The position numbers and the translations under genes are program-made. A stretch of 64,000 bases of DNA from Rhodocyclaceae bacterium (lineage in GTDB: Bacteria > Pseudomonadota > Gammaproteobacteria > Burkholderiales > Rhodocyclaceae), in NCBI GenBank assembly GCA_018261935.1, contig JAGTRP010000013.1, positions 62,001 to 126,000 on the forward strand, read 5' to 3'. Shown piece after piece: positions 3,635-51,612 of the stretch (position 1 is its first letter; every line of letters starts with the position of its first letter). The notes beneath the pieces were generated by a model. That model was not told the origin of the DNA. It saw only the letters and a list, made by a program, of their open reading frames with translations, and ran no database searches.

Positions 3635-3730
3635 GGAAGAGATCGTTCCCCGGTGGGACGGCCGGTCTTCAAAACCGGCGGGGCTCGTCAGACGAGCCTT
3701 GGTAGGTTCGACTCCTGCTCTCTTCCGCCA
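3635..3730 (+). tRNA. selC: tRNA-Sec (anticodon UCA)
   Basis: This 96-nt gene encodes its own CCA end. It shows the features specific to bacterial tRNA-Sec: an 8-bp acceptor stem (GGAAGAGA with TCTCTTCC), an extended D stem, the anticodon loop CTTCAAA with TCA at 3669-3671, a long variable arm (GGGGCTCGTCAGACGAGCC) and the T-arm GGTTCGACTCC. It resembles E. coli selC closely in layout. It decodes UGA as selenocysteine with SelB, and its presence beside selAB shows that the organism makes selenoproteins. Confidence 0.98.
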
Positions 3731-45241: not shown

Positions 45242-46054
<813 letters not shown>

Positions 46055-46108: not shown

Positions 46109-46381
<273 letters not shown>

Positions 46382-46418: not shown

Positions 46419-46889
46419 GTGAACATCAACGCTACACTGATTGGCCAGGCTATCTGGTTTGCGCTCTTCATCTGGATCACGATGAAGTATGTTTGGCCGC
46501 CGCTGCAAAAGGCGATGGCCGACCGTCAAGCGCAGATCGCTGAAGGCCTGGCTGCGGCTGAACGCGGCAAGAACGAGCAGGAGATCGCTGCCAAGCGCTC
46601 CGCCGAAACCCTGCGCGAAGCCAAGGGCAAGGCCGCCGAGCTGGTCGCCCAAGCCGAAAAGCGTGCGCAGCAGATCATCGAGGAAGCCAAGGGCGCTGCC
46701 AAGGTTGAGGCCGACAAGGTCGTCGCCGGCGCCAAGGCGGAAATCGACCAGGAAGTCGAACGTGCGAAGCAGCAACTGCGCGAGCGCGTCGCCGAACTGG
46801 CGGTTGCCGGTGCCGAGAAGATCCTGCGCAAGGAAATCAATGCGTCCGTGCATGGCGACATGCTGGGCGCCCTGAAACAGGAACTGTAA
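46419..46889 (+). CDS. atpF: ATP synthase F0 subunit b
   Basis: Subunit b is the peripheral stalk. The 156-residue protein has one N-terminal membrane helix ([34 protein letters not shown]) and a long Ala/Lys/Glu coiled-coil. The start is GTG with AGGAGG upstream. It ends 4 bases before atpH. Confidence 0.96.
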
Positions 46890-46893
46890 GCCC

Positions 46894-47430
46894 ATGGCTG
46901 AATCCGTCACTATCGCCCGTCCTTACGCCGAAGCCCTGTTCCGGGTGGCGAAGGAAAGCGGCGCTCTGGCCAAGTGGTCCGGGCAGGTCGCTCTGCTCGC
47001 CCAAGTGGCCGCCAGTCCCGAGGCCCAATCGGCCATCGGCGATCCCAACGTGGCGGCCCCGCAACTGGTCGACCTTTTCCGGTCTGTCTGCGGTACGGCG
47101 ATAGATGCGGAGCTGTCGAACTTCATCCAGCTGCTGGCTGACAATGACCGTCTGGGGCTGTTGCCCGAAATCGGCGCTTTGTACGAAAGCTACAAGCAAG
47201 CCGAAGAAGGCACCAGGCAGGCCGAAATCCATTCGGCCTTCCCCCTCGACGACGGCCAGGTCAAGGCTCTCGTGCCCCAGCTCGAAGCCTATTTCAAGAC
47301 CAAGCTGGAAGCGTCGGTCAAGGTTGATCCCGAACTCATCGGCGGGATCAAGGTACTGGTCGGCGACCAGATGCTGGATGCTTCAGTCCGCGGCAAGCTC
47401 GACGCCATGGCTACGGCGCTGAACCACTAG
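46894..47430 (+). CDS. atpH: ATP synthase F1 subunit delta
   Basis: Delta links the stalk to the F1 head. The 178-residue protein begins with the typical TIARPYAEALFRVAKESG, has the FIQLLADNDRLGLLPEIGALYE block in the middle and a C-terminal VKVDPELIGGIKVLVGDQMLDASVRGKLDAM. Normal length and position. Confidence 0.96.
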   Translation: MAESVTIARPYAEALFRVAKESGALAKWSGQVALLAQVAASPEAQSAIGDPNVAAPQLVDLFRSVCGTAIDAELSNFIQLLADNDRLGLLPEIGALYESYKQAEEGTRQAEIHSAFPLDDGQVKALVPQLEAYFKTKLEASVKVDPELIGGIKVLVGDQMLDASVRGKLDAMATALNH

Positions 47431-47439
47431 GAGAATTTC

Positions 47440-48978
47440 ATGCAGTTGAATCCTTCCGAAATTTCTGAACTGATCAAGAACAAGATCCAGAACCTGCAGG
47501 GCGCGTCGGAAGTGCGCACGCAGGGCACGGTCGTTTCCGTGACCGACGGTATCTGCCGCGTCCATGGCCTGCAAGACGTCATGCAGGGCGAAATGCTGGA
47601 ATTCCCCGGCAACACCTTCGGCATGGCGCTGAACCTCGAGCGCGACTCCGTCGGCGCCGTTGTTCTTGGCGAATACGAGCACATCTCCGAAGGCGACGTG
47701 GTCAAGACCACCGGCCGCATTCTGGAAGTTCCCGTCGGCCCCGAGCTGCTGGGCCGCGTTGTGAACTCCCTGGGCCAGCCCATCGACGGCAAGGGCCCGA
47801 TCAATGCCAAGCTCACCGACAAGATCGAAAAGGTCGCCCCGGGCGTTATTTGGCGTAAGTCCGTTTCCCAGCCGGTCCAGACCGGTCTGAAGTGCGTGGA
47901 CTCCATGGTGCCCGTCGGCCGCGGCCAGCGCGAACTGATCATCGGCGACCGCCAGACCGGCAAGACCGCCGTCGCTGTCGACGCCATCATCAACCAGAAG
48001 GGCAAGAACCTCTTCTGCGTCTATGTCGCTATCGGCCAGAAGGCTTCCACCATCGCCAACGTGGTGCGCAAGCTGGAAGAGCACGGCGCGATGGAATACA
48101 CCATCATCGTCGCCGCCTCCGCTTCCGAATCCGCTGCGCTGCAGTACATCGCCCCCTACTCCGGCTGCACCATGGGCGAGTACTTCCGCGACCGCGGCCA
48201 GGACGCCCTGATCATTTATGACGATTTGACCAAGCAGGCCTGGGGCTACCGTCAGGTTTCCCTGCTGCTGCGCCGTCCGCCGGGCCGTGAAGCCTACCCG
48301 GGCGACGTGTTCTACCTCCACTCCCGCCTCCTGGAGCGCGCCGCTCGCGTTTCCGAAGCTTGGGTCGAGAAGCTGACCAATGGCGAAGTCAAGGGCAAGA
48401 CCGGTTCGCTGACCGCTCTCCCCGTGATCGAAACCCAGGCCGGCGACGTGTCCGCCTTCGTTCCGACCAACGTCATCTCTATTACCGACGGCCAGATCTT
48501 CCTGGAAACCGACCTCTTCAACGCCGGTATCCGTCCCGCCATCAACGCCGGTATCTCCGTGTCCCGCGTCGGTGGTGCCGCCCAGACCAAGCTGATCAAG
48601 AAGCTTGGCGGCGGTGTCCGTCTGGCACTCGCCCAGTACCGTGAACTGGCTGCCTTCGCGCAGTTCGCTTCCGATCTGGACGAAGCGACCCGCAAGCAGC
48701 TGGAGCGTGGCCGCCTGGTGACCGAGCTGATGAAGCAGCCCCAGTACTCCCCCATGAGCATCTCCGAAATGGCCGTCACGCTGTACGCGGCCGACAAGGG
48801 CTACTTCGACGACGTCGAAGTCAAGCGTGCTCTGGAGTGCGAAAAGGCCATGATCGGCTACCTGAAGGCCAACTGCGCCGACGTCATGGAAACCATGGAG
48901 TCCAAGGCTGACCTCGACGGCGAAACCGAGAAGAAGCTCGCCGCCGGCATTCAGGCTTTCAAGAGCAGCTGGGCCTAA
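47440..48978 (+). CDS. atpA: ATP synthase F1 subunit alpha
   Basis: The 512-residue non-catalytic nucleotide-binding subunit has P-loop [13 protein letters not shown], the signature [17 protein letters not shown] and [47 protein letters not shown]. It is complete and typical. It lies 17 bases before the broken atpG. Confidence 0.98.
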
Positions 48979-48995
48979 TCAGGTAGGAGAACGCC

Positions 48996-49726
48996 ATGCC
49001 TAGCGGCAAGGAAATTCGCAACAAGATCAAGAGCGTCGAAAACACGCGCAAGATCACCAAGGCCATGGAGATGGTGGCCGCATCCAAAATGCGCAAGGGA
49101 TTCTCATCACCTCCGACAAGGGCCTGTGCGGCGGCTTGAACAGCAACGCACTGCGTCTCGTGGTCGGCAAGATGAAGGAATGGGACGCCGCCGGCATCAA
49201 GACCAGCGCCACCTGCATCGGCAACAAGGGCTTCGGCTTCATGCAGCGGGCCGGCGTCAATGTCGTCTCCCACGTTGTGGGCATGGGCGACACGCCGCAC
49301 CTGGAAAAGCTCATCGGGCCGGTGAAGGTTCAGCTCGACGCCTACATGCGCGGTGAAATCGACGCCCTCTACATCGTCTATACCCGCTTCATCAATACGA
49401 TGAAGCAGGAGCCGGTGATCGAACAGCTTCTTCCCCTCTCCGGGGAGGAAGTCGGTTCCGCCAGGACCAAGTGGGATTACGTCTACGAGCCGGAAGCCAA
49501 GTCGGTCATCGACGACCTGCTCATCCGCTACGTCGAAGCGTTGATCTATCAGGCTGTGGCCGAAAACATGGCCTCCGAGCAGTCTGCCCGGATGGTGGCC
49601 ATGAAGTCCGCCTCCGACAACGCCAAGAACGTCATCGGTGAATTGAAGCTGGTCTACAACAAGGCCCGCCAGGCCGCGATTACGAAGGAACTTTCGGAAA
49701 TCGTGAGCGGCGCCGCCGCCGTGTGA
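48996..49726 (+). pseudogene. atpG: ATP synthase F1 subunit gamma, internal deletion and frameshift
   Basis: The gene starts normally: a ribosome site (GTAGGAG), ATG at 48996, and codons for [19 protein letters not shown] through ASKMRK to Lys34 (49097). The next in-frame codons give [13 protein letters not shown] and a TGA at 49137-49139, a 47-residue product. From 49100 a different frame continues the real protein, [20 protein letters not shown] through to EIVSGAAAV and the TGA at 49724-49726. Against E. coli gamma, residues 35-76 and one base of codon 77 are missing, about 127 bp, which explains the frame change. The lost part belongs to the N-terminal shaft helix. Neighbouring atp genes look intact, so this is either an assembly error or a recent loss. 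Confidence 0.9.
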
Positions 49727-49733
49727 CGCGTAG

Positions 49734-51161
<1,428 letters not shown>

Positions 51162-51186: not shown

Positions 51187-51612
51187 ATGGCAATTTCTGT
51201 TCATTGTGACGTCGTCAGCGCGGAAGAGCAGATCTTCTCCGGCATCGTCGAATTCGCCGTTTTCCCCGGCGAAGCCGGCGAGCTGGGGATCATGCCTCAC
51301 CACACGCCGCTGCTGACCCGCATCAAGCCGGGCACCATCCGGCTGAAGGTGCCGGGCCAGGCGGACTACGAGCTGGTGTACGTGTCCGGCGGCATGCTGG
51401 AAGTGCAGCCCGACATGATCACCGTGTTGGCCGACACCGCCATCCGTGCCCACGACCTGGACGAAGCCAAGGCCCTGGACGCCAAGAAGCGGGCCGAGGA
51501 AGCCCTGGCCAACCGCCAGGCCGAGGTGGACTACGCCGCGGCCGAAGCGGAGCTGGCCCAGGCCATCGCTCAGCTGCAAGCCATCCAGCGTCTTCGGAAG
51601 CACACGCACTGA
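51187..51612 (+). CDS. atpC: ATP synthase F1 subunit epsilon
   Basis: Epsilon couples gamma to the c-ring and inhibits ATP hydrolysis. The 141-residue protein has the N-terminal beta barrel ([46 protein letters not shown]) and a C-terminal helical hairpin ([22 protein letters not shown] ...). It closes the atp operon, with a terminator 21 bases downstream. Confidence 0.96.

Follow-up and report, generated by a model that had tools for sequence, protein, structure and literature searches.

The F-type atpG gene of a Rhodocyclaceae bacterium is broken within the stretch of DNA analyzed here (the window, 64,000 nucleotides of contig JAGTRP010000013.1, assembly GCA_018261935.1). On the plus strand of window positions 48996-49726, the gene is intact up to Lys34, breaks between 49098 and 49099, and resumes in the -1 frame. 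On balance, the shortened atpG is more plausibly a fault of assembly or consensus, or a captured minority variant, than a fixed loss, and the break is no settled property of the lineage.

Position, size, and frame of the break

The frame starting at ATG 48996 encodes 34 good gamma residues (codons 1-34, 48996-49098, plus strand), followed by 13 unrelated residues and a stop codon at 49137-49139, so that the run-on ORF ends at 49139. The remainder of gamma can be read in the -1 frame, beginning at 49100 and ending with the stop at 49726 (plus strand); it matched PF00231 with 242.8 bits over profile positions 68-285. At the junction (49098-49099), a total of 130 or 133 nt is absent relative to relatives, corresponding to 43-44 codons and to a length of 3n+1, and a blastn gap was observed against 104 of 104 measurable loci. 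The alignment places the break after the MRK codons and before ILITSDKG; aligned against relatives and E. coli gamma, the gene lacks residues 35 to about 78. The Pfam ATP-synt model, when applied separately to the two atpG ORFs, covered profile positions 2-32 and 89-285, while a six-frame PF00231 search of the own genome gave gamma pieces at profile positions 3-32 and 68-285. A single open frame over the whole PF00231 profile was not present, the gene being left as two pieces in different frames. The frame break after Lys34, as described in an earlier note made from the letters of the window, is thus borne out by ORF reading, blastn, and Pfam, and its figure of about 43 codons, lost up to about residue 78, agrees with the present count. 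The deletion that it described is there, but its size is 130 or 133 nt (104 measurable loci) instead of about 127 bp.

The 3' piece could first start at TTG 49136; this codon shares bases with the TGA of the 5' piece, and an AAGGG is located 13 bases upstream of it. Reinitiation at this TTG would yield a protein devoid of everything N-terminal to it. This overlap of start and stop, together with the AAGGG, might be taken to support a rescued rotor, in which reinitiation or -1 frameshifting would supply gamma in two pieces or short of 43-44 residues. The AAGGG at 13 bases is, however, farther from the start than a usual ribosome-binding site, and such an arrangement was found in none of the 104 measurable relatives. 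Rotation in vitro has been reported for thermophilic F1 from which the 50-residue N-terminal helix of gamma was removed entirely (PMC4052266), which also favors rescue, but the residues lost here extend past that helix: by its length of 50 residues (PMC4052266), residues 35 to about 78 represent its end and the following stretch. Since ATP synthesis should require high torque (PMC4052266), a useful F-type synthase would not be expected from the broken atpG, and we consider a rescued rotor very improbable. The earlier claim that frameshifting could not repair the gene is right as regards the missing residues; the claim of no functional rotor is slightly too strong in view of the rotation of the thermophilic F1.

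The rest of the F-type operon

The F-type ATP synthase operon is located on the plus strand from atpB at 45254 to the end of atpC at 51612, with the gene set atpBEFHAGDC. The other structural genes, which look intact according to the earlier note, match almost the entire length of their NCBIfam models (atpI was outside the scan): the three Fo genes atpB (subunit a, 45254-46054, NF004477, 357 bits, profile 9-268 of 268), atpE (subunit c, 46118-46381, NF005363, profile 2-79 of 80), and atpF (subunit b, 46419-46889, NF004411, profile 1-156 of 156), and the F1 genes atpH (delta, 46894-47430, NF004402, profile 1-179 of 179), atpA (alpha, 47440-48978, TIGR00962, profile 2-500 of 503), atpD (beta, 49752-51161, TIGR01039, profile 2-462 of 462), and atpC (epsilon, 51187-51612, NF001847, profile 3-138 of 139), all on the plus strand. 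The atpD ORF was read from TTG 49752, but ATG 49758 is the likelier start. Elsewhere in the window, a tRNA-Sec gene was identified at 3635-3730, and therefore the organism probably makes selenoproteins.

Comparison with related loci

Window positions 48896-49800 were compared by blastn with a total of 110 related loci (30 from the genome search and 80 named; the two sets may overlap). Except for one locus without a match, all were matched (109 of 110), and both flanks of the break were resolved in 104, the other five lacking one flank or both. The deletion was shared by none of these 104 measurable loci, and the gap was present in every alignment across the site. The missing length was 133 nt against 61 loci, 136 against 13, 139 against 12, 130 against 10, and of other size against eight; it was 3n+1 in 103 of the 104. 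The value of 130 nt was observed against some of the closest loci (L036, L041, and L042). The best-matching named loci belong to Dechloromonas, Azonexus, Accumulibacter, and their relatives; the own C-part is 87% identical (query residues 72-286) and the N-part 97% identical (1-35) to gamma of an Azonexus MAG (L036). An ancestral deletion shared with relatives is rejected, as none of the 104 measurable loci carries the gap; this is the comparison with close relatives that the earlier note had proposed. Among the relatives, gamma of Dechloromonas MAG SSB2 (L040:4761-5642) has an altered C-terminus and one undetermined residue, and its odd C-terminus is probably a sequencing error.

The survey was extended to an order-wide sample of 300 genomes, of which 290 gave a gamma match. 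An in-contig break of gamma was detectable in two of the 290, the own genome included, as judged from the best E-values among the matches listed; breaks near gene ends could be missed in this survey, and many genomes gave two to four gamma matches. The second case is G297 (C113:6741-7590; L151 and L154), in which gamma is split into two overlapping frames within one contig, and no second gamma match was found in that genome. Contig ends account for several other defects: gamma of G299 is spread over two contigs, that of G126 stops nine bases from a contig end, and that of G194 is apparently truncated by the end of its contig, no downstream flank being present at the locus. No gamma match was obtained for G276, G115, and G275 in the sample of 300, nor for G011, G015, and G023 in a sample of 61 genomes. 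In G023, atpD begins at base 63 of its contig, indicating loss of gamma at the contig end, and only distant ATPase matches were found in G011 and G015.

Selection on the surviving segments

The ratio dN/dS was estimated by the Nei-Gojobori method against 10 loci chosen for closeness among the 80 named loci, each gene being counted if tblastn covered 95% (10 loci for gamma and for atpD, eight for atpA, seven each for atpF and atpB, and six for atpH). For the gamma C-part, the ratio was 0.101 between the own sequence and the 10 relatives and 0.088 among the relatives; the corresponding pairs were 0.040 and 0.053 for the gamma N-part, 0.054 and 0.052 for atpA, 0.045 and 0.035 for atpD, 0.283 and 0.239 for atpH, 0.197 and 0.173 for atpF, and 0.350 and 0.262 for atpB, the largest gap of the seven. 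The own ratio was thus slightly higher in six of the seven comparisons, but the test is coarse and this excess would not be read as decay, because dS is near saturation and, for atpB, the own dN is below that among relatives. Accordingly, no clear sign of relaxed selection was detected on the surviving gamma segment by dN/dS against 10 relatives. An old or established pseudogene is rejected, the gene having a single break with the rest open and constrained. The loss must therefore be very recent or not real.

Other gamma genes in the genome

A second atpG elsewhere had been offered in the earlier note as one way out. When the full gamma of a relative was used as query against the own genome, just the two known pieces were matched as F-type gamma, and a 48-residue query for the missing segment gave two chance-level matches (E 0.24 and 1.07); both a second F-type gamma and a relocated missing piece are rejected on these searches. 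A second gamma gene does exist, G000:C16:145776-146594 (PF00231, 91.7 bits), the only other gamma in the genome. It is located on a different contig, as the last gene of a second ATPase operon (L114:3960-10143). This operon has the order beta, epsilon, one small gene of the ATPase_gene1 type, a, c, b-delta (fused), alpha, and gamma; its neighbors are a gene for an RND efflux pump (ACR_tran) on one side and, on the other, one for a P-type ATPase that carries a heavy-metal-binding domain. The best scores for its beta, b-delta, and gamma were obtained with "alternate F1F0" models; because all seven such models matched below their curated cut-offs, the operon is, as judged from these matches, probably a divergent member of the N-type ATPases. 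The main function of N-type ATPases is presumed to be ATP-driven ion pumping (PMC11738941), and that of Burkholderia pseudomallei has been proposed to pump protons efficiently at the expense of ATP, alongside a normal F-type synthase (PMC5376962). Belonging to such a divergent operon, the second gamma is no spare part and does not restore the F-type enzyme.

In the sample of 61 genomes, a second full-length or near full-length gamma was found in six besides the own (G018, G030, G041, G046, G051, and G056), which need not all be N-type; G036 was left out, its second match being a contig-end fragment. All six keep an intact F-type gamma. G126 also has a second gamma, beside its F-type gamma cut by the contig end.

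Assembly quality and origin of the break

On the favored reading, which includes the assembly or consensus error offered in the earlier note, the living lineage most likely has an intact F-type atpG, and the shortened copy comes from an assembly or consensus fault or, alternatively, from reads of a minority variant that entered the consensus of a probable metagenome bin. An origin from such a bin is hinted at by the failure to match 16S and 23S rRNA in the own assembly, which was scored 100% complete. Missing rRNA is common in short-read bins; it is weak evidence here, as the same searches were positive in nine and 10 of 14 control genomes.

As to further frame breaks, a frameshift at about 74326 divides a paaK-like gene for phenylacetate-CoA ligase (G000:C16:73666-74968; L142:13666-14968), the two pieces matching TIGR02155 at positions 1-209 and 211-410, so that at least one further frameshift is present in the 328 kb of the own genome sampled. 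No Ns were found in the 328 kb read. A first frame-scan model (19 calls) was discarded, having been trained partly on antisense ORFs. A second model gave 15 candidate switches, most of which are probably artefacts of stop-codon scoring at overlapping genes. Rescoring of 111 adjacent same-strand ORF pairs led to 16 being reported, one with strong support (the paaK-like gene); since it called the 5' piece of atpG non-coding and so missed atpG itself, short pieces are missed and the frameshift count is a lower bound.

The fault or captured variant is favored by several observations together: none of the 104 measurable loci shares the gap, the other scanned F-type genes are intact, the gamma C-part is without clear decay (0.101 versus 0.088), the genome scored 100% complete gave no 16S or 23S match, in-contig breaks of this kind occur in assemblies as in G297, and the 328 kb hold the paaK-like frameshift. 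In addition, the heme-copper oxidase family PF00115, which also includes nitric oxide reductases, was matched four times, suggesting that the organism is a respirer, for which loss of the F-type enzyme would be costly. On the other hand, a rate of one additional frameshift per 328 kb would not stand out, and that frameshift may itself be real; no Ns interrupt the 328 kb, and the rRNA evidence is weak. Repeat collapse is the usual cause of assembly deletions, but it is unsupported here because, in the three relatives inspected, both ends of the missing segment had 0 bp of microhomology to the flank. A short-read assembler also normally needs reads carrying the junction.

The rival explanation, which corresponds to the strain without ATP synthesis by this complex in the earlier note, is that the deletion is real and inactivated the gene very recently in the clone or population that was sequenced; we regard it as less likely, though to be taken seriously. 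The F-type enzyme would then be dead or uncoupled, and the cells would be sustained by substrate-level phosphorylation and possibly by the N-type ATPase; culture growth or drug pressure could favor such a deletion. In line with such a loss are the lack of microhomology around the junction, as judged from three relatives (0 bp), which leaves no explanation by repeat collapse, the presence of two acetate-kinase-family genes, and the probable N-type operon, in which every core subunit is represented. Against it stand the respiratory look of the genome with its four PF00115 matches, the low likelihood of a population-wide null in such a gene if the source is a bin, and the six of six other two-gamma genomes (sample of 61) with an intact F-type gamma. 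In the case of a fault or captured variant, the lesson would be that even with a completeness score of 100%, a genome may show a key gene as dead. With a real deletion, the strain would offer a natural test of the N-type ATPase as a synthase without the F-type rotor; that the deletion is real and that a respiratory bacterium makes its ATP in this way is, however, very unlikely.

Comparison with known systems

In the titles and abstract openings of the literature on N-type ATPases and on atpG mutants or pseudogenes, no case was found of a bacterium in nature that combines a deletion of F-type atpG with an N-type operon. Under aminoglycosides, E. coli gains atpG changes including frameshifts (PMC5867336, PMC12416847), and the atpG knockout of the Keio collection, employed in PMC5867336, is able to grow, both of which make a real loss conceivable; the plain knockout, however, was without gentamicin resistance, the effect being tied to altered gamma structure and not to simple loss (PMC5867336). 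The present gene resembles those E. coli mutants in having a frameshift or deletion in atpG, but the mutants are experimentally evolved clones with known ancestors, whereas the present case is known from an assembly sequence.

The gene order of N-type ATPases is beta, epsilon, X, X, a, c, (b-delta), alpha, and gamma (PMC11738941). The second ATPase operon of the own genome is close to the ProAD N-type ATPase described there, both in gene order and in the presence of the b-delta fusion, but differs in that a single small gene separates epsilon from a, as against two in ProAD (PMC11738941). The broken atpG itself is similar to the gene for the F-type gamma subunit (PF00231; NCBIfam NF004144, TIGR01146) with respect to its operon slot between atpA and atpD, but is different from it in the absence of 130 or 133 nt and the change of frame, as a result of which no single full protein is encoded.
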